A stretch of DNA of 64,000 nt from Halosolutus amylolyticus (GCF_023566055.1 NZ_JALIQP010000002.1:992001-1056000), one strand, 5' to 3'. Shown: positions 42,653 to 50,895, counted from the first letter of the stretch. Numbers and translations are program-made. The notes: generated from the letters alone by a model not told the origin.

Positions 42653-43144
42653 TCAGCTCTTGCACTCGACGGATACCTTACGAGGGGAGGTCGTGTCGAC
42701 ATCCACACTGTCTCCGTCCGCCTCGACCTCGAACGTGAGCGACTCCGTTCCAGAATCCAGTTCGACGTCCGCATCGGCACTGGAAGCGTTGCACGCGGCC
42801 TCGATCGAGACGGTTTCGTTGCTTCCGACCGATTGGTACTGGACGGTTTCATCGGCGTTCCCGCTTTCATCGTATTCACCCACGTAAATCGACACCTCGA
42901 GCGGATCGAGTTCGTTCTCGAAGTTGTTGGTGACGTTGAATACTCCCTTCGTCTCGCCCGACTCGAACGTGACGGTCGAACTATTCTCGTAGTCGAACGC
43001 CAGGTACGCATCGTCGTCTCCGACCACCGAAACCGCCGACGAACGATCGGCTTCCGTAGAGCTAAACGCGCCGCTGCCTCCGAGCAGGAGGAGAAGGACG
43101 GCGACGATCAGCAACGCCGTGCTGGCGAGTTTGAGTCGGTTCAT
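42653..43144 (-). CDS. Secreted DUF1102-like surface protein
   Basis: 163 residues. The N-terminus MNRLKLASTALLIVAVLLLL is a signal or anchor helix followed by GGSGAFSSTEADRSSAVSVV. This SGAFSSTEADRS block is shared almost word for word with the proteins at 44141 and 44848. The rest is a beta-sandwich-like domain ending in a pair of cysteine-containing stretches (IEAACNASS and VECKS). The pattern matches haloarchaeal DUF1102 proteins, comparable with bacterial camelysin/TasA substrates of a dedicated signal peptidase. It starts 3 bases after the stop of the regulator gene, so they form one operon. Confidence 0.7.
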   Translation of the reverse strand: MNRLKLASTALLIVAVLLLLLGGSGAFSSTEADRSSAVSVVGDDDAYLAFDYENSSTVTFESGETKGVFNVTNNFENELDPLEVSIYVGEYDESGNADETVQYQSVGSNETVSIEAACNASSADADVELDSGTESLTFEVEADGDSVDVDTTSPRKVSVECKS

Positions 43145-43147
43145 GGA

Positions 43148-43753
43148 TCAGTGTCGATCGGAAACGTGTTCGACTTCGGGTGGTTCGCTGTCGATTCCGA
43201 GCCGGTTTCGCCTCGAGTAGAACCGGTGTGCGAGCGCCGAGACGGCGAACGCGACGACCACGAAGACCCCCCACGTGAACTGATCGATCACCGAGAACGG
43301 GAATATCTCGAGCGTTGAAACCGCGAAGGAGGCCGCCGCGACGGCCGTCAATCCGAGGTAGTAATCGCTCCACGGGATCTCCCGCCCGCGAACGACGTCC
43401 ATGTAAATCTCGACGTCCTCGAGCGCCTCGGTCGGCTCGACGACGCCGTGGTTGTGGTCGTACTCGAGGACGCCAGCCTTGTCCATCTTCGGGAGGTGGG
43501 TCTGCTGGAGCGCCGTGTAGACGCGCTTGCGATCGGTACTCGAGACCTTCTCGATCGGCGTCCCGTCCTCCCAGGCCGCGATCTCCTGGGAGATCTGCCC
43601 GACGTCGACCGGGCCGTCCTCGCGCATGAGCGCGTGGAGGATGTGTCGTCGTCGCTGGTTCGAGAGGAGCGTAAAGAGCTCGTCCTCCGAAATCGATCCA
43701 CTATCGTCCGTCGTCTGTTCCCCCCCAAGGGAACTCGCCCCCGCTGTCGCCAT
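43148..43753 (-). CDS. Winged-helix regulator with two membrane helices (DUF7344-like)
   Basis: 201 residues. An N-terminal winged helix (ELFTLLSNQRRRHILHALMR, then RKRVYTALQQTHLPKMDKAG) is followed by a linker and two hydrophobic segments (LGLTAVAAASFAVSTLEIFP and FTWGVFVVVAFAVSALAHRF). A repressor tied to the membrane could sense the state of the cell surface. It is divergently oriented to the DUF1102 operon at 44141 and co-transcribed with the DUF1102 gene at 42653, so it is the best candidate regulator of the locus and of the nearby palindromes. Confidence 0.78.
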   Translation of the reverse strand: MATAGASSLGGEQTTDDSGSISEDELFTLLSNQRRRHILHALMREDGPVDVGQISQEIAAWEDGTPIEKVSSTDRKRVYTALQQTHLPKMDKAGVLEYDHNHGVVEPTEALEDVEIYMDVVRGREIPWSDYYLGLTAVAAASFAVSTLEIFPFSVIDQFTWGVFVVVAFAVSALAHRFYSRRNRLGIDSEPPEVEHVSDRH

Positions 43754-44140
43754 CGACTGAAGCTAATTATGTCGACCTATTAATCCTATTGGTAATTCAG
43801 ACATTAATCGAGAGAAACAGTTCTGGTGGGGTCGAGAACCCGACAGTGGACCTGGTGGCGACGCGGTCATTTCGAAGACGATGCGTTTCGGTTCCGGGTC
43901 GATCGAAAACTGACGATAGCGGACCGGCACCGGGAGGTCAACGACCCCAATCCGCCGGTTCGGGGTGCCGAAAGCACCCGTTGACCGGTGTTCAACACCG
44001 TCGATACGGGTCACCCGGACGAGTCGATACGGCGTTGACCGACGGTCAACAGGGAGTGGTGATCGGTCAACTCGCGTACTACAATGGGCCTTCCACCGGG
44101 AGTATGGAGCGAGTCCCTTCGAGGGACTGGCGACAGAACC
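43754..44140. promoter_or_regulatory. Divergent control region with palindromic operator-like sites
   Basis: 387 bases without a gene. A/T-rich boxes near the left end (CTAATTATG, CCTATTAATCC) would serve the leftward regulator operon. To the right, CGGTGTT-C-AACACCG (43986-44000) and GTTGACCG-A-CGGTCAAC (44034-44050) are perfect odd palindromes. Additional half-sites are GTTGACCG at 43980-43987, GGTCAAC at 43937-43943 and CGGTCAAC at 44064-44071. GTCGATACGG is repeated at 44000-44009 and 44023-44032. A weak TATA-like TACTACAAT near 44076-44084 precedes the rightward operon. Confidence 0.6.
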
Positions 44141-44815
44141 ATGCAACGACGCAAGTTCGTAATCGGAATGGGGGCATTGGCATCAGGTACTGCGGCTGCG
44201 GTCGGCTCAGGCGCGTTCACGACTTCGAAGGCAGACCGTTCACTCGAAGTGTCCGTTGCGGCCGATGACAGCCAAGCCTTCCTCGCAATGGATCCACAAG
44301 ACGAGGATAGAGTTAGAACCAACGGCGACGGTGCGATCGAAATTGACCTAGCTCAGGACAACACTGGAAACAGTGAAACTGCTGACACGGGGGTGAATCC
44401 GAACGGGTTTACTGATTTCCTGAATCTCTTCACAATCACGAACCAGAGTACGAACGATCTCGTCGTGATGATCGACGGTGCAACGGACGTTCAATCATAC
44501 GAGGGGATTTCGATTTTCAGCGCTTACGACACGAGTCGGGAACACGAACCTGGAATTTCCGATAACGCCGGCAGCCCGCCGCCGCTCGAATACGACGAGA
44601 CGGAAGGCGGTGCTAATTATAAGATCCCCAGCAACTTCGATCCGACTGACTACTTCGGTGAAGGAAACGACTACCCAGTTCTCAGTCCAGGTGAAACACT
44701 CGATGTCGGGTTCTACTTCGTGACGGAAAGTGCACCCAGTACGCGTCTATACAAGGATACCAGCCTGACGGTCGCTGCCGTTGCAGTCGACAGTGAGCGG
44801 GACAAGAGGTCGTAA
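44141..44815 (+). CDS. Secreted DUF1102-like surface protein
   Basis: 224 residues from the ATG at 44141. The N-terminus MQRRKFVIGMGALASGTAAA has a twin-arginine-like start and a hydrophobic core, and runs into VGSGAFTTSKADRSLEVSVA. The mature domain is beta-rich and acidic, with FLNLFTITNQSTNDLVVMID and SPGETLDVGFYFVTESAP, like the structural domains of TasA/camelysin-type proteins. Base composition is less G/C-rich than its neighbours: 44281-44340 has 33 G/C of 60. It is the first gene of a three-gene operon. Confidence 0.72.
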   Translation: MQRRKFVIGMGALASGTAAAVGSGAFTTSKADRSLEVSVAADDSQAFLAMDPQDEDRVRTNGDGAIEIDLAQDNTGNSETADTGVNPNGFTDFLNLFTITNQSTNDLVVMIDGATDVQSYEGISIFSAYDTSREHEPGISDNAGSPPPLEYDETEGGANYKIPSNFDPTDYFGEGNDYPVLSPGETLDVGFYFVTESAPSTRLYKDTSLTVAAVAVDSERDKRS

Positions 44816-44847
44816 CACCACCTCTACGCCCCGAGTCATCCACTACA

Positions 44848-45408
44848 ATGAAACGACGACGATTCGTCATTGGAACGGGCGTATTCGCCGCTTCCACGAG
44901 TATCGTGCTCGGCTCGGGAGCATTCACGACGACGACAGCCGACCGGTCTGTCTCGATCAGCGTGGCAGATGAAGACCCGAATGCGTTTCTCGCGATAACC
45001 GCTGAATCGGAAATTGCCGAAGTCGGTGAGGATGGAACGATCGAGATAACGATCGACGAGCAGCTCGGAACCAACGACGGCAAAGGCGTCGGTGTAGACT
45101 CGTCATACACGTTCTGGAACGTCTTCTCGGTGCAGAACTATGGCACAAATCCAGTGAACGTGTATGGAGAGCCAGGTCATCTAGAAGATCACGAAGGTGG
45201 TGCTGGAACACCAGAGATAGTCGAACCGACTGATAACGAGATAACAGTTACTCTGCTTGACGGGAACGGTAACGAACTCGATATTCAAGAACTCCAACCC
45301 GGTGATCCAAAAGAAACCGTATCTGTGAAAATAGATACCACGGATGTCGAGCCGGGTGCTGAACCTCATCAGGCAGAGTACGTGCTCGTCGCCGAAGCAG
45401 TAGAGTAA
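44848..45408 (+). CDS. Secreted DUF1102-like surface protein
   Basis: 186 residues. MKRRRFVIGTGVFAASTSIV followed by LGSGAFTTTTADRSVSISVA repeats the export and processing block of its neighbours. The domain includes FWNVFSVQNYGTNPVNVYGE and the closing strand PHQAEYVLVAEAVE. It lies 32 bases after the previous gene and is clearly paralogous to it. Like that gene it has lower G+C than the flanks, consistent with joint acquisition or relaxed codon bias. Confidence 0.72.
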   Translation: MKRRRFVIGTGVFAASTSIVLGSGAFTTTTADRSVSISVADEDPNAFLAITAESEIAEVGEDGTIEITIDEQLGTNDGKGVGVDSSYTFWNVFSVQNYGTNPVNVYGEPGHLEDHEGGAGTPEIVEPTDNEITVTLLDGNGNELDIQELQPGDPKETVSVKIDTTDVEPGAEPHQAEYVLVAEAVE

Positions 45409-45455
45409 CGAACAGCCAGAGGGTACGAGCGCCCCTCACTGACGAAATCCAATCG

Positions 45456-46949
45456 ATGAAAACGTCTCACGCCACACTGGTGTTCGCTCTCGTTCTCGTA
45501 GTGGCAATACCGACTGCTGCAGTAACTGTATTCGACACCAACTCCCAGGATCGGATCACCGACGACATCGTCGCCGAGCCATCTGACGGCCCGAACGGCG
45601 CGTACGCGTTCGTCGACAACGACACCGACGAGCTGGTGGTCGATCTGACCGCGAGTAACGACGAGGTCGAGGGTGACGGCGTCTCACCGGACGCGCTCAC
45701 CGGAGTTTCGGACGTCTTCACCCTCACGTACGAGGGCGACGAGTACGCCGAAGTCTGGCTCGAGGACGACACTGACGACGTCACCTTCTACGACGGTGCA
45801 GGGAATTCGATCGAAGGCCAGGCCAATAACGTCACGCTCCACCAGAACCAGACGGTTCACGTCGGCTTCTCGGTCGATACCCGCGATCTCGAGACGATCG
45901 ATCCGATTATCGACTCGATCGAGATCAACGCGCGAGTGCCCGACGACGACGGCGATGGCGGTGGCGGAGGCGGTGGCGGCGGCGCCCCGTCGCCGGGACA
46001 GCCCGCGCCGCCCGACCCGGCACCGCCGGATCCGACCGTCATCGTCCAGACGCCGGCGGACGACGTCCGCAACGTGCAGGTCCTGAACGCGCAGGGCGGC
46101 ACCGCGGTGACGGTCGACCTCGAGGAACTGCGGATCGGCCCGCACGTGACGCTCGATCGGACCGACGTCACGATGGTCGACGATCGCAACGCGATCTACA
46201 GCATCGACGCGTCCCAGAAGGGGCCGAAGTTCGAGCCCCTCGACACCCTGCCCGCACAGGCGGGCGCGGAACCGATCGGGAGTTACAAGATCGAGGATCC
46301 GCCGGCGGCCGACGCCGTGAAGTCGGTCGAGTACGGCTTCAGCGTCGATCGAAACTACCTCGAGAACGAGGAGATCGAACCCGACGAGGTGACGCTCTAC
46401 CGGTACGACGACGACAAAGGCACGTGGACCACGCTCGAGACGAAGGTCCTCGAGACGAGCGACGACCGGGTCGCGTACACCGCGACAATCGATCGATTCT
46501 CGCTGTACGCCGTCGGCGTCGACACCGCGGCGATCACGGTCACCGACGCGACCGTCGAACCCGATACCGTCTCGATCGACGAGAACGTGACCGTCACCGG
46601 GATGATCGCCAACGACGGGCAGGACGAAGGTGAGTACGACGCGGTGCTCACGGTCGACGGCGAGGTCGTCGATCGGCAGACCGTCACCGTCCCCGCAGGC
46701 AAGTCCGTCGAGGTGTCGTTCGAGCGCTCGTTCGACGAGGCCGGCGAATACGACCTCGGGATCGGTACCGTCCCCGCGGGCACGGTCACCGTCGAGGCCG
46801 CGGAGGAACCGAAGGAACCGATCGAAGAACCCGGCGGGTTCGGAGTCACGGAAACGGGACTCGTCCTCGTCCTGCTCGCGCTCGCGCTGACCGCGCTGTG
46901 GTTTGTCCGTCGGCGACTCGACGACGAGAGCCCGTTCGATCGACGGTAG
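45456..46949 (+). CDS. Large cell-surface protein with C-terminal membrane anchor
   Basis: 497 residues. A signal peptide MKTSHATLVFALVLVVAIPT leads to a DUF1102-like beta domain (about residues 30-165). A glycine run and a proline-rich linker (about 170-195) follow. Next comes a PGF-pre-PGF-like domain (PADDVRNVQVLNAQGGTAVT to YTATIDRFSLYAVG), then a CARDB-like beta-sandwich (VTDATVEPDTVSIDENVTVT). The end, GGFGVTETGLVLVLLALALT and an arginine-rich tail, is a membrane anchor resembling a loose PGF-CTERM signal. It probably ties the two smaller proteins upstream to the cell surface. Confidence 0.75.
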   Translation: MKTSHATLVFALVLVVAIPTAAVTVFDTNSQDRITDDIVAEPSDGPNGAYAFVDNDTDELVVDLTASNDEVEGDGVSPDALTGVSDVFTLTYEGDEYAEVWLEDDTDDVTFYDGAGNSIEGQANNVTLHQNQTVHVGFSVDTRDLETIDPIIDSIEINARVPDDDGDGGGGGGGGGAPSPGQPAPPDPAPPDPTVIVQTPADDVRNVQVLNAQGGTAVTVDLEELRIGPHVTLDRTDVTMVDDRNAIYSIDASQKGPKFEPLDTLPAQAGAEPIGSYKIEDPPAADAVKSVEYGFSVDRNYLENEEIEPDEVTLYRYDDDKGTWTTLETKVLETSDDRVAYTATIDRFSLYAVGVDTAAITVTDATVEPDTVSIDENVTVTGMIANDGQDEGEYDAVLTVDGEVVDRQTVTVPAGKSVEVSFERSFDEAGEYDLGIGTVPAGTVTVEAAEEPKEPIEEPGGFGVTETGLVLVLLALALTALWFVRRRLDDESPFDRR

Positions 46950-47281
46950 CCGACCCCACTTCGATCGGTTCGGACATCCACGGCCGAACTGGGGAGCCTA
47001 TTTCTTCGCAATCGCTCCGCAAGAGCCGTCCCTGTCTCGTATCGAGTCGTGAGTCGAGCGTCGAAACGCGTGTTGAAACGGTGCCGAGGTTAAGGTGCGT
47101 TCAAGCCTACTCCGTTACACGTCGCCTGCTCTCGACCGAGTGTGGCGCGGCGGCGAGGACTCCCCCAAGGGACGACCCCGACACACTTCCCCCCAAGGAA
47201 TCGCCGCGAACCGACCCGGACGTGAGTGCGGCGAGAGGCATTGCTGGCGCTGCCAGCAACTGCACTCGTTTCACGAACGCT
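46950..47281. other. Intergenic region of 332 bases
   Basis: No gene is supported; open frames here lack starts and recognisable sequence. CCCCCAAGG occurs twice, at about 47162-47170 and 47190-47198. The same nonamer occurs at about 43722-43730 and, inverted, near 42455-42464. No clear TATA box precedes the rhomboid-like gene. Confidence 0.45.
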
Positions 47282-48210
47282 ATGCTGGACCAGAACCGGC
47301 GATCGGACCACGACACAGCACCGATAGCCGATCGAGTCGAGAACGCCGCCACCGCGACCGATGGATCTGTGTCGACCGTTCGACGGGACCTCGTTCTTCT
47401 CGGATGCGTTCCGTTCCTGCTAGTGATCGGGTTTTTGCTCCCGGCAGAACTGCAGCGACGACTCGCGTTCCGGTACACCGATCCGTCAGTTCTCACCGCG
47501 TACACGGCACCTTCGTGCACATCGAACCGGCGCACCTCGTCGCGAATCTGATCGGATACGGACTGCTCGCGGGGACGTGTTACCTGCTCGCGGTCGAATC
47601 CGACCATCGTTCGTTCTTCGTGATCGCGTTTTCCGGAATCGTGCTGTCGTTTCCACTGACGCTGTCCGCGCTGAACCTGGCGACGCCGAGAAATGGGATC
47701 CTGTACGGGTTTTCGGGCGTAAATATGGCACTTCTCGGTCTGTTGCCGCTGTGCCTCGTCGAGTTCGCCCGTGTTCGGTTCTGGATCGGGTTCGAACGCC
47801 GTGACGGCGGGATGCTCTTCTTCCTCTCGCTGGCAGCGATCGCGATGCTGGCCGTACCGCTCTCGCTGATGACGAGTGCACTCTCGCTCAGCGCAGTCGT
47901 GATTTCCGGATGGTACGTCCACGATCTCACCGATCGAGGCTTTCGATTGGCTGGATTTCTACGGCTGGTACTCGAACGGAGGCACGACGGCAATCAGTTC
48001 GTTCTCGGAAGCGTTCTCTTCGTGTCGTACCTGTTCGTCGGATTTCCGACCGACATCGTCACCGACGGTTCCGTCCTGAACCTCTACGTGCATTTCCTCG
48101 GGTATAGTATGGGCTTCGTCGGATCGTACGTTCTGCTCGAAGCGCAGGTCTTCGGTCCACCCGCCCCGGCTGAGGCGAGGGATTCCCAACTCGAAACACG
48201 GTCTCGATGA
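47282..48210 (+). pseudogene. Rhomboid-family intramembrane protease, frameshifted
   Basis: The N-terminal part reads in one frame from the ATG at 47282 (MLDQNRRSDHDTAPIADRVE to RYTDPSVLTAYT). The rest continues in another frame from about 47505 (VHGTFVHIEPAHLVANLIGY). Together they give a rhomboid-like protein of about 310 residues. It has six or more helices, a catalytic-serine-like GILYGFSGVNMALLGLL, and a late histidine in YVHFLGYSMGFVGSYVLLE. One missing base at about 47500-47515 would explain the break. This is either a genuine inactivating mutation or a sequencing error. If intact it would cleave membrane segments of surface proteins, fitting the locus. Confidence 0.65.
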
Positions 48211-48448
48211 CTGGGCGAACTCGGGTGGAGTCAAGATCGGCCCGTACCCGAAACACTGGACAAAAGACCACTGAATCACACGGGTATCGAGGCCGTGAAC
48301 CGCCCCGATTGCAATCAGTTCGAGAGAGCGACTCTCACGAGTCATCACGGCGGATCTTCCGTCTTCCGAGCGACCCCGAGGCATCCGGCCTGCTCCGCCT
48401 GTAGATTACCGCCCCAAACATCTCGCAGAAAACATGTATCTGAACCAG

Positions 48449-48487
48449 AAATATAATGTAAGTAGCCAATAATTCACGATAGTGAAT
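48449..48487 (+). promoter_or_regulatory. Promoter and start-site palindrome of the signal peptidase gene
   Basis: TATA-like AAATATAATG (48449-48458) is 28 bases before the ATG at 48486. ATTCAC (48472-48477) and GTGAAT (48482-48487) form an inverted repeat with a 4-base spacer that overlaps the start codon, as an operator or a short 5' hairpin would. Confidence 0.5.
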
Positions 48488-49649
48488 GAGTCGGGTATGG
48501 ATCGGGAGACTGATACAGGGAGTGATACTCCTCACCATTATTTCACTGGTGATAGGTCAACTACTTGGACAACCGGTCCTACTTGGCTTCGTCAAAACGG
48601 GCAGTATGGAACCGACGATCGAGACCGGTGACGGATTTATTGCGATTCCGAGCGCGCTTGCCGGGGATCCTGAGACAGGGGACGTCGTCGTCTTCGAAGC
48701 CGAAGAGATCGACGGCGGCGGGCTAACGACACACCGTATCGTCGACGAGACGGACCAGGGCTACGTGACTCGCGGTGACGCCAACCCCTTCACCGATCAG
48801 GACGGGGGTGAACCACCGGTACAGGACGCACAGGTCGTGGCGACGACGGTACAGGTCGGGGACTCGGTCGTCACGATTCCACATCTCGGAACGCTCGTGA
48901 TGGGACTCGACGACGGGCGCGAGTCCGTTCAGACCTGGCTCGCGGCCACCGTCGGCGTTCGATCGCTGCTCGGGACGACGGGTCTCGCCTACCTGTTACT
49001 CGGCCTCTCGGCCGTCGCGTACACGCTCGAAACAGTCCGTGAACGTCGTGACCAGGATCGTGAGTCGCGTCTCGGACGCGACCGGAAACGGGTCCTCGAT
49101 CCGCGGGTAGTCTGCGGGACGTTCGCGGTACTGGTCGTCGTCGCGGCGACTGCCGCAATGATCGTCCCTGCGGGAAGCCACTCTTACGATGTCGTCAGTT
49201 CGGAGTCGCCCTCGGAACGCCCGCTCGTGATCGAGCACGGAACGACCACGGACCTGCCATACACCGTCGCCAACACCGGCGCGGTTCCCGTCGTCTCGTA
49301 TTTCGAATCCGACAGTGATCGCGTCGCCGTCGATCGTGAGCGCGTGACGGTCGGGAGCCGAGCGGAAACCGACGTCACCGTTTCCCTCACTGCACCGGCA
49401 GATACGGGATACTACCAGCTGTACGTCACCGAACGCCGGTATCTGCACGTGCTCCCGCTACCGGTGCTCGATTTCCTCTACGGCGTTCATCCCTGGATTC
49501 CGATCGCCGTTATCGACGCCCTGTTCGGTGGGACGACCTACGCGGTCGGACGAACGACGATCGACACGGGCCGGTATCGAGGACAGTATCGAAGTCTCCG
49601 AAGCGATCGTCCGAGAACAAGCCGTCGAGAACGTTACCGTGACCGATAA
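48486..49649 (+). CDS. Archaeal signal peptidase I (S26), extended form
   Basis: 387 residues, roughly twice the usual Sec11-type length. The N-terminal part is a standard archaeal peptidase: a membrane helix (VILLTIISLVIGQLLGQPVL), catalytic serine S40 in VKTGSMEPTIETGDGF, histidine H83 in LTTHRIVDE, and acidic residues in VTRGDANPFTDQDGG. After a second helix (LAYLLLGLSAVAYTLETV), a third helix and an Ig-like extracytoplasmic domain (TTTDLPYTVANTGAVPVVSY) are added, then a C-terminal hydrophobic segment. Its position beside three DUF1102 proteins suggests a dedicated SipW-like peptidase for them. Confidence 0.85.
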   Translation: MSRVWIGRLIQGVILLTIISLVIGQLLGQPVLLGFVKTGSMEPTIETGDGFIAIPSALAGDPETGDVVVFEAEEIDGGGLTTHRIVDETDQGYVTRGDANPFTDQDGGEPPVQDAQVVATTVQVGDSVVTIPHLGTLVMGLDDGRESVQTWLAATVGVRSLLGTTGLAYLLLGLSAVAYTLETVRERRDQDRESRLGRDRKRVLDPRVVCGTFAVLVVVAATAAMIVPAGSHSYDVVSSESPSERPLVIEHGTTTDLPYTVANTGAVPVVSYFESDSDRVAVDRERVTVGSRAETDVTVSLTAPADTGYYQLYVTERRYLHVLPLPVLDFLYGVHPWIPIAVIDALFGGTTYAVGRTTIDTGRYRGQYRSLRSDRPRTSRRERYRDR

Positions 49650-49692
49650 CTATGGGTAAGCATCCAGTTCGAACGGAGACGTGGTCGAACCG

Positions 49693-50895
49693 ATGACCGA
49701 GACGCAACTACGACTGCGAGCGACATTCGCCGAGTACCGACCGATTATCGTCGTCGCACTCGTCGTGCTGCTGGCAGTCGGTGGATGGGTGACGTACGGG
49801 ACGTACGTCGATCCGGGCGAAGAGACCGAACGACAGCGCGTCGATTCGTGGATAGTCACCGGCGACGTCTCACACGGCGCAGAAATCACACGGGAGAACG
49901 CTGTCTTCGAGAACGGATCCGAGTTCAACGACGAACCGGTCTACTACACCGAACTCTCGCCGACGGCCACTGGCGAATTCAGCGTCAGGTATCATGCGAC
50001 GTCGGGAGAGAACGTCACGATCACGATCGTTCCGGAACTCGTCTATCGATCCGCGGACGAGGACGTAGTGTACTGGGAGCAATCCAGCGAACTGTCGTCG
50101 GTCACCGAATCGAACGTCGCTCCCGACGAAGCGGTAACTGCGAGTTTCGACGTCAATACGACCGCCGTCGAAGACGAGGTTGGAGAAATCGAGGACGACC
50201 TGGGAGCCAGTCCCGGGGAGACTGCAGTGTTTGTCCGCGCCACCATCGCCGTTGACGGCCAGATCAACGGTCAACAGCGGTCGGTGAGTCAAACGGAGCG
50301 CGTCACACTCTCGATCGATGGCGGGACCTACCGTTTCGAGAACGACGACGCGTTCGAGGAGTCGTTCGACGAGTACGAAACCGTATCTGTCACGCAGTCG
50401 CACGGGCCGATTCGAACCATCGGCGGACCGCTCTTGCTAGTACTCGGGGGAGCCGGACTGATCGCGAGTGTGATCGCCGATCGGCGCGTTCTCGACCTTA
50501 CGGACGGCGAGCGACGCTGGCTCGAATACGCCGCCGATCGATCCGAGTTCGAAGACCTCGTCACGACCGCAGCGCTTCCAGCCGACGTTCTCGATCGGCC
50601 CCGCGCCGAAGTCGCGTCGTTCGAAGACCTCGCTCAACTCGCGATCGACCTCGAAACTCCACTGATCGACGAGCGAACGGAAGAGTGCTACGTCGTTCCC
50701 GGTGAGGACGTCTGCTACGTCTACGACCCACCAGAACCACCGTCTGCGAATCACGCTCCCAAATCGACGCCGGGAGACGGATCGAACTCGATCCTCGAAT
50801 TCGCATCAGTCGACGACGAAGAAACTGACAACGAGGACAGCGTCGTTGAAGCGGAAACGATCCCTGACGAAGCGACTGACGAGACCGCAAAATAG
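49693..50895 (+). CDS. DUF5305-like membrane protein
   Basis: 400 residues from the ATG at 49693; a GTG four codons earlier is possible. One N-terminal helix (IIVVALVVLLAVGGWVTYGT) leads to an outside beta-rich domain with FSVRYHATSGENVTITIVPE and VFVRATIAVDGQINGQQRSV. A second helix (IGGPLLLVLGGAGLIASVIA) leads to an inside domain with the conserved-looking RWLEYAADRSEFEDLVTTAA, and an acidic tail. The family repeatedly accompanies signal peptidase I in haloarchaea and is probably its partner or an assembly factor. The role is inferred from context. Confidence 0.78.
   Translation: MTETQLRLRATFAEYRPIIVVALVVLLAVGGWVTYGTYVDPGEETERQRVDSWIVTGDVSHGAEITRENAVFENGSEFNDEPVYYTELSPTATGEFSVRYHATSGENVTITIVPELVYRSADEDVVYWEQSSELSSVTESNVAPDEAVTASFDVNTTAVEDEVGEIEDDLGASPGETAVFVRATIAVDGQINGQQRSVSQTERVTLSIDGGTYRFENDDAFEESFDEYETVSVTQSHGPIRTIGGPLLLVLGGAGLIASVIADRRVLDLTDGERRWLEYAADRSEFEDLVTTAALPADVLDRPRAEVASFEDLAQLAIDLETPLIDERTEECYVVPGEDVCYVYDPPEPPSANHAPKSTPGDGSNSILEFASVDDEETDNEDSVVEAETIPDEATDETAK

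Follow-up and report, generated by a model that had tools for sequence, protein, structure and literature searches.

The question raised by this locus is what surface structure its genes build. The window, i.e., the whole 64,000-nucleotide stretch of Halosolutus amylolyticus DNA that was analyzed, contains a cluster of eight genes at positions 42653–50895. These encode a TafC-like protein, a DUF7344 membrane winged-helix protein, two pilins with twin-arginine signals, a TafF-like anchor, a rhomboid, a signal peptidase and a DUF5305 protein, and all were found in the order and at the coordinates given by the initial annotation. That annotation had suggested an archaeal fibre or matrix layer as the product. 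We assign a probability of roughly 85% to the reading that this is a tafi-type (Tat-dependent fimbria) biogenesis locus, and the very probable product of the cluster is a thin surface filament of this type. In haloarchaea, the name tafi denotes fimbriae with components that depend on Tat for export (Galeva et al. 2025, iScience 28:111793, as cited in PMC12687288). The fibre is supported as the product, by homology and recurrence, yet the system is of a known kind, and its novelty as a whole is not supported because tafi were described in 2025. What can be read from the DNA is the gene content, the conserved order, the signals, the active-site residues, the homology of the pilins to a solved Tafi pilus and the fixed position of the peptidase beside DUF5305.

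The three small proteins were compared with known families and structures. Protein B (224 aa, 44141–44815, plus strand) and protein C (186 aa, 44848–45408, plus strand) carry twin-arginine signals, RRKF and RRRF, respectively, which the initial annotation had not mentioned, and the RR pair was invariant across a 60-row pilin alignment. Protein A (163 aa, 42653–43144, minus strand), a TafC-like minor fimbrial protein, has a Sec-like signal without RR; despite the missing RR, profile comparison showed it to be kin to the pilins (hhalign E 2.7e-22). Export would be by Tat for B and C and by Sec for A. The nearest NCBIfam models were TafE and TafA for B (5.7e-16 and 8.9e-10) and for C (TafE 3.4e-12) and TafC for A (6.6e-8), with best window scores that all lay below the cut-offs (TafE, 58.7 vs 155 bits; TafA, 38.9 vs 190 bits; TafC, 32 vs 410 bits). 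All 60 aligned pilins also matched TafE and TafA below the NCBIfam cut-offs. As every Taf match fell under its cut-off, the locus is described as divergent and tafi-like, and its proteins were not filed as equivalogs. The small proteins had been called DUF1102-like; this identity was ruled out, as Pfam DUF1102 (PF06510) matched none of them at E ≤ 1.

The pilin profile found one strong relative in the PDB, 9p0a (E 1e-31; 2.3e-10 for B and 8.6e-11 for C), titled 'Structure of Natrinema sp. J7-2 Tafi pilus', which is the closest solved relative. Tat-signal pilins and a GAF..ADR block are common to the window and to 9p0a. The N-terminal block GSGAF[ST][ST]xxADRS, said earlier to be common to the three small proteins, was matched exactly in A (GSGAFSSTEADRS, about 43040–43078, minus strand), B (GSGAFTTSKADRS, 44204–44242, plus strand) and C (GSGAFTTTTADRS, 44911–44949, plus strand). 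The block regex missed many proteins, and the letter profile alone was taken from that search. Of the 215 residues in the 9p0a chain sequence, 188 are modelled. By length arithmetic rather than from coordinates, and if the C-terminus is complete, the first modelled residue is F28, directly after GTGA of the block, in agreement with a peptidase cut at GA|F that leaves a strand at the N-terminus. The GSGAF..ADR block probably covers both the site of the peptidase cut and an N-terminal assembly strand. In TasA of B. subtilis, a Phe is located close after the SipW cut, at P2' (PMC10269814). Separately, the cysteines of the TafC-like A proteins were located only near two conserved places, one of them invariant (C161 of the window protein), and a disulfide is possible.

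In the case of the signal peptidase I (archaeal/SipW type, 387 aa, 48486–49649, plus strand), the match to TIGR02228 reached 57.6 bits, over the cut-off of 51.85. Its description as an enlarged enzyme with a catalytic Ser/His pair was borne out by alignment, as Ser40 and His83, together with Asp98, were the same in all 14 relatives aligned, and the C-terminal extension was conserved. The initial annotation had assumed that this enzyme processes DUF1102 proteins; a dedicated peptidase beside likely pilin substrates is supported by homology and recurrence, and only the DUF1102 label was given up. The dedicated peptidase would cut inside the shared block (GSGA|F), and the freed N-terminal strand would complement the following subunit, in the manner of TasA/AbpA-type fibres, leading to polymerisation.

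A dedicated SipW-like peptidase, small beta-rich subunits and an aromatic residue just after the cut are also features of the SipW/TasA/CalY system of Bacillus and of archaeal bundling pili (AbpA, PDB 7ueg). By similar logic, the cluster could make a TasA/camelysin-like matrix or coat layer instead of discrete pili, as a SipW-like peptidase lies beside small beta-rich substrates there too. The peptidase matched the Bacillus SipW model at 2.3e-10, below the cut-off, and the best fold match of the predicted pilin model (moderate, pLDDT 67) was the bundling pilin 7ueg, with several FimA pilins ranking next; none of these matches was significant. However, the pilus 9p0a is closest in sequence among solved relatives, and the names of the Taf family models refer to fimbriae; a matrix or coat was judged improbable. 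Moreover, the window differs from these systems in the twin-arginine signals of its pilins and in the extra components D, DUF5305 and DUF7344, and no significant sequence match of the window proteins to TasA or AbpA was found.

Co-occurrence of these families, whose failure to recur had been set beforehand as a refutation of the proposed module, was found. DUF5305 was present in 92 of 116 sampled genomes of the class. The 98 analysable DUF5305 loci contained the extended peptidase in 94 cases, a pilin-like protein in 90, a DUF7344 winged-helix protein in 75 and a rhomboid in 27, and the peptidase was located immediately upstream of DUF5305 in 62. Similarly, 63 full peptidase-centred loci from named genomes held DUF5305 in 61 cases and a pilin-like protein or D in 62. 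In 20 arbitrary 18-kb control loci from the same genomes, no peptidase, pilin, anchor D, rhomboid or DUF5305 was found, and two winged-helix genes were. A widespread haloarchaeal neighbourhood is thereby tied to one tafi-related fibre-building system. Moreover, 10 of 12 TafA genes over the cut-off lay within about 7 kb of DUF5305. The TafA-bearing loci (gene lists L098, L118, L123 and L125) share the extended peptidase, DUF5305, DUF7344 and TafF-like genes with the window, and they also hold TafC- and TafE-like genes. The window differs from them in that none of its proteins reaches the TafA, TafC, TafE or TafF cut-off, in its gene order and in having a rhomboid placed after the TafF-like gene and before the peptidase.

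The DUF5305 protein (404 aa, 49681–50895, plus strand; Pfam 1.9e-53), correctly named as a membrane protein before, was predicted to consist of a TM helix, a beta-rich outer part, a second TM helix and a cytoplasmic domain (mean pLDDT 89.7). The fold search returned generic beta-sandwich matches with low TM-scores; therefore, no function was read from it. DUF5305 may be a membrane assembly factor. The probable regulator (43148–43753, minus strand) carries a DUF7344 winged-helix domain (Pfam PF24035, 6.7e-29) followed by two C-terminal hydrophobic segments, in agreement with its earlier description as a membrane-tethered winged-helix protein. Between this gene and pilin B, the divergent intergenic region holds five of the 16 GGTCAAC/GTTGACC copies of the window (43936–44071, no strand), one pair of which forms a palindrome (GTTGACCGACGGTCAAC). 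The word was enriched six-fold in 103 homologous divergent regions, although it was chosen after looking. Several Natrialbaceae loci have two or three GGTCAAC copies at the equivalent place, and the paralogous cluster of the same genome has none. These heptamers are a candidate operator, and DUF7344 would control transcription from this region. DUF5305, the extended peptidase and DUF7344 thus gain roles that can be tested.

Protein D (497 aa, 45456–46949, plus strand) is the large anchored surface protein noted earlier; its presence was confirmed, and a large C-terminally anchored protein is supported by homology and recurrence. It consists of a pilin-like N-terminal domain, a PGF-pre-PGF domain, a CARDB domain and a C-terminal tail of EEPGGFG, a TM helix and RRR (about 46815–46946), with matches to TIGR04213 (1.5e-13) and CARDB (3e-5). 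The N-terminal part is kin to the pilins (hhalign E 2.2e-18) and fits Pfam DUF1102 weakly, just under its cut-off (20.1 vs 22.2 bits). In NCBIfam, no TafF match of the window protein was found at E ≤ 1, and a Halorubrum orthologue matched TafF at 2.7e-13, below the cut-off. With its pilin-like domain and C-terminal TM helix, D would be the membrane-bound base of the filament. A plain PGF-CTERM signal was set aside for its tail, as the PGF-CTERM model matched 11 places in the genome and D was not among them.

The rhomboid (47282–48210, plus strand, the start being an estimate from the upstream frame) had been described as broken, and tblastn of intact relatives located the damage: homology follows frame 2 as far as 47509 and frame 1 from 47512 on, and the relatives keep intact copies. 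In these intact relatives, 16 in number, HxxxHxxxN, GxSG and a final His were invariant. No match to the window rhomboid was found in the two other genomes of the genus. A second, diverged cluster of the same genome lies about 110 kb away (L004:4332-10540; G000:C2, about 1150.3–1156.5 kb) and keeps the order TafC-like protein, winged-helix protein, pilin, D, peptidase and DUF5305, with one pilin and no rhomboid. The window cluster could then be decaying or silent, the work being done by this rhomboid-free paralogue; the frameshift would agree with this, as would the fact that no other copy of the rhomboid subfamily was found in the genome. However, the other seven genes are intact, and the frameshift is possibly a one-base assembly error. 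Moreover, the two clusters are not recent duplicates, because their peptidases share only 44% identity and clusters with the rhomboid recur elsewhere. Decay or silence was regarded as unlikely.

The rhomboid and the matching tail of D are the feature of the locus that may be new. The place of the rhomboid in the cluster is fixed, and all 32 rhomboid matches over 300 bits lay within about 4 kb of DUF5305. The only NCBIfam model matched by the intact rhomboids was the rhombosortase model TIGR03902 (12 of 16, best E 2.2e-5), far under its cut-off of 84 bits, and the window rhomboid reached 17.6 bits. Genomes with a single rhombosortase target are reported to encode the rhomboid beside the target protein (Haft and Varghese 2011, PMC3237569). 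Likewise, most of the rhomboids here lie next to a gene whose product bears a Gly-containing motif, a TM helix and a basic C-terminus. They differ from the rhombosortase/GlyGly-CTERM system in their scores (17–25 bits vs the cut-off of 84) and in their motif, which is EPGGFG-like and not SGGS; moreover, the surveyed rhombosortases were mostly from proteobacteria (PMC3237569), whereas the rhomboids described here are haloarchaeal.

At most rhomboid loci, the protein just upstream ends in an EEPGGFG- or EEPSGID-like motif, a TM helix and basic residues, whereas the D proteins of rhomboid-free loci, including that of the paralogue in the same genome, mostly keep the TM helix without the motif. 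An EPGGFG-like/TM/RR tail was found on the TafF-like protein in 43 of 47 rhomboid loci and in 4 of 31 rhomboid-free loci, and the tail score separated the two groups (AUC 0.98 under cross-validation). A Fisher test across loci gave p = 1e-12, which was not taken at face value, the loci being related. Mapped on the peptidase tree, the states of rhomboid and tail show only 5 and 8 changes, which leaves 3–5 independent contrasts; 3 of the contrasts were supported, with means of 1.7 concordant and 0 discordant.

We propose that the intact rhomboid acts on the EEPGGFG/TM/RRR tail of D, releasing or re-anchoring the base. Tentatively, and with somewhat less than even odds, the rhomboid is regarded as a dedicated archaeal rhombosortase for the TafF-like base subunit of Tat-exported fimbriae, so that one operon would hold processing enzymes for both the N-terminus of the shaft and the C-terminus of the anchor. 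The rhomboid and D are a candidate protease–substrate pair and, if this is true, rhombosortase-like C-terminal sorting reaches archaea. It is also quite conceivable, though again not favored, that the rhomboid is unrelated to the tail, which would be a signal for archaeosortase (ArtA/PGF-CTERM) or simply an anchor, the association reflecting shared ancestry of one operon type. The PGF-pre-PGF domain of D, the small number of independent contrasts and the TafA-type loci L098 and L118, which have a rhomboid nearby and no such tail, are consistent with this. On the other hand, the PGF-CTERM model passes over the tail of D, the tail score separates the loci as described, the paralogue without a rhomboid lacks the motif, and L068 and L133, two loci where the tail is present but no rhomboid lies next door, belong to genomes that hold an unlinked rhomboid of the subfamily.

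For the proposed action of the rhomboid on D, the frameshift implies that processing of the tail may be lost in this genome; D of the window keeps its tail although the rhomboid is frameshifted. Members of the subfamily with in-frame stops or in fragments were also observed in other genomes (G054:C14:95905-96747, G030:C3:347688-348440 and L051), and loss of the rhomboid gene may recur across genomes. Another member (L225:12716) lies away from tafi-like clusters, beside a secreted-looking upstream ORF of 560 aa with the tail EQSGFD, a TM helix and ARRRV, which hints at targets beyond fimbriae.
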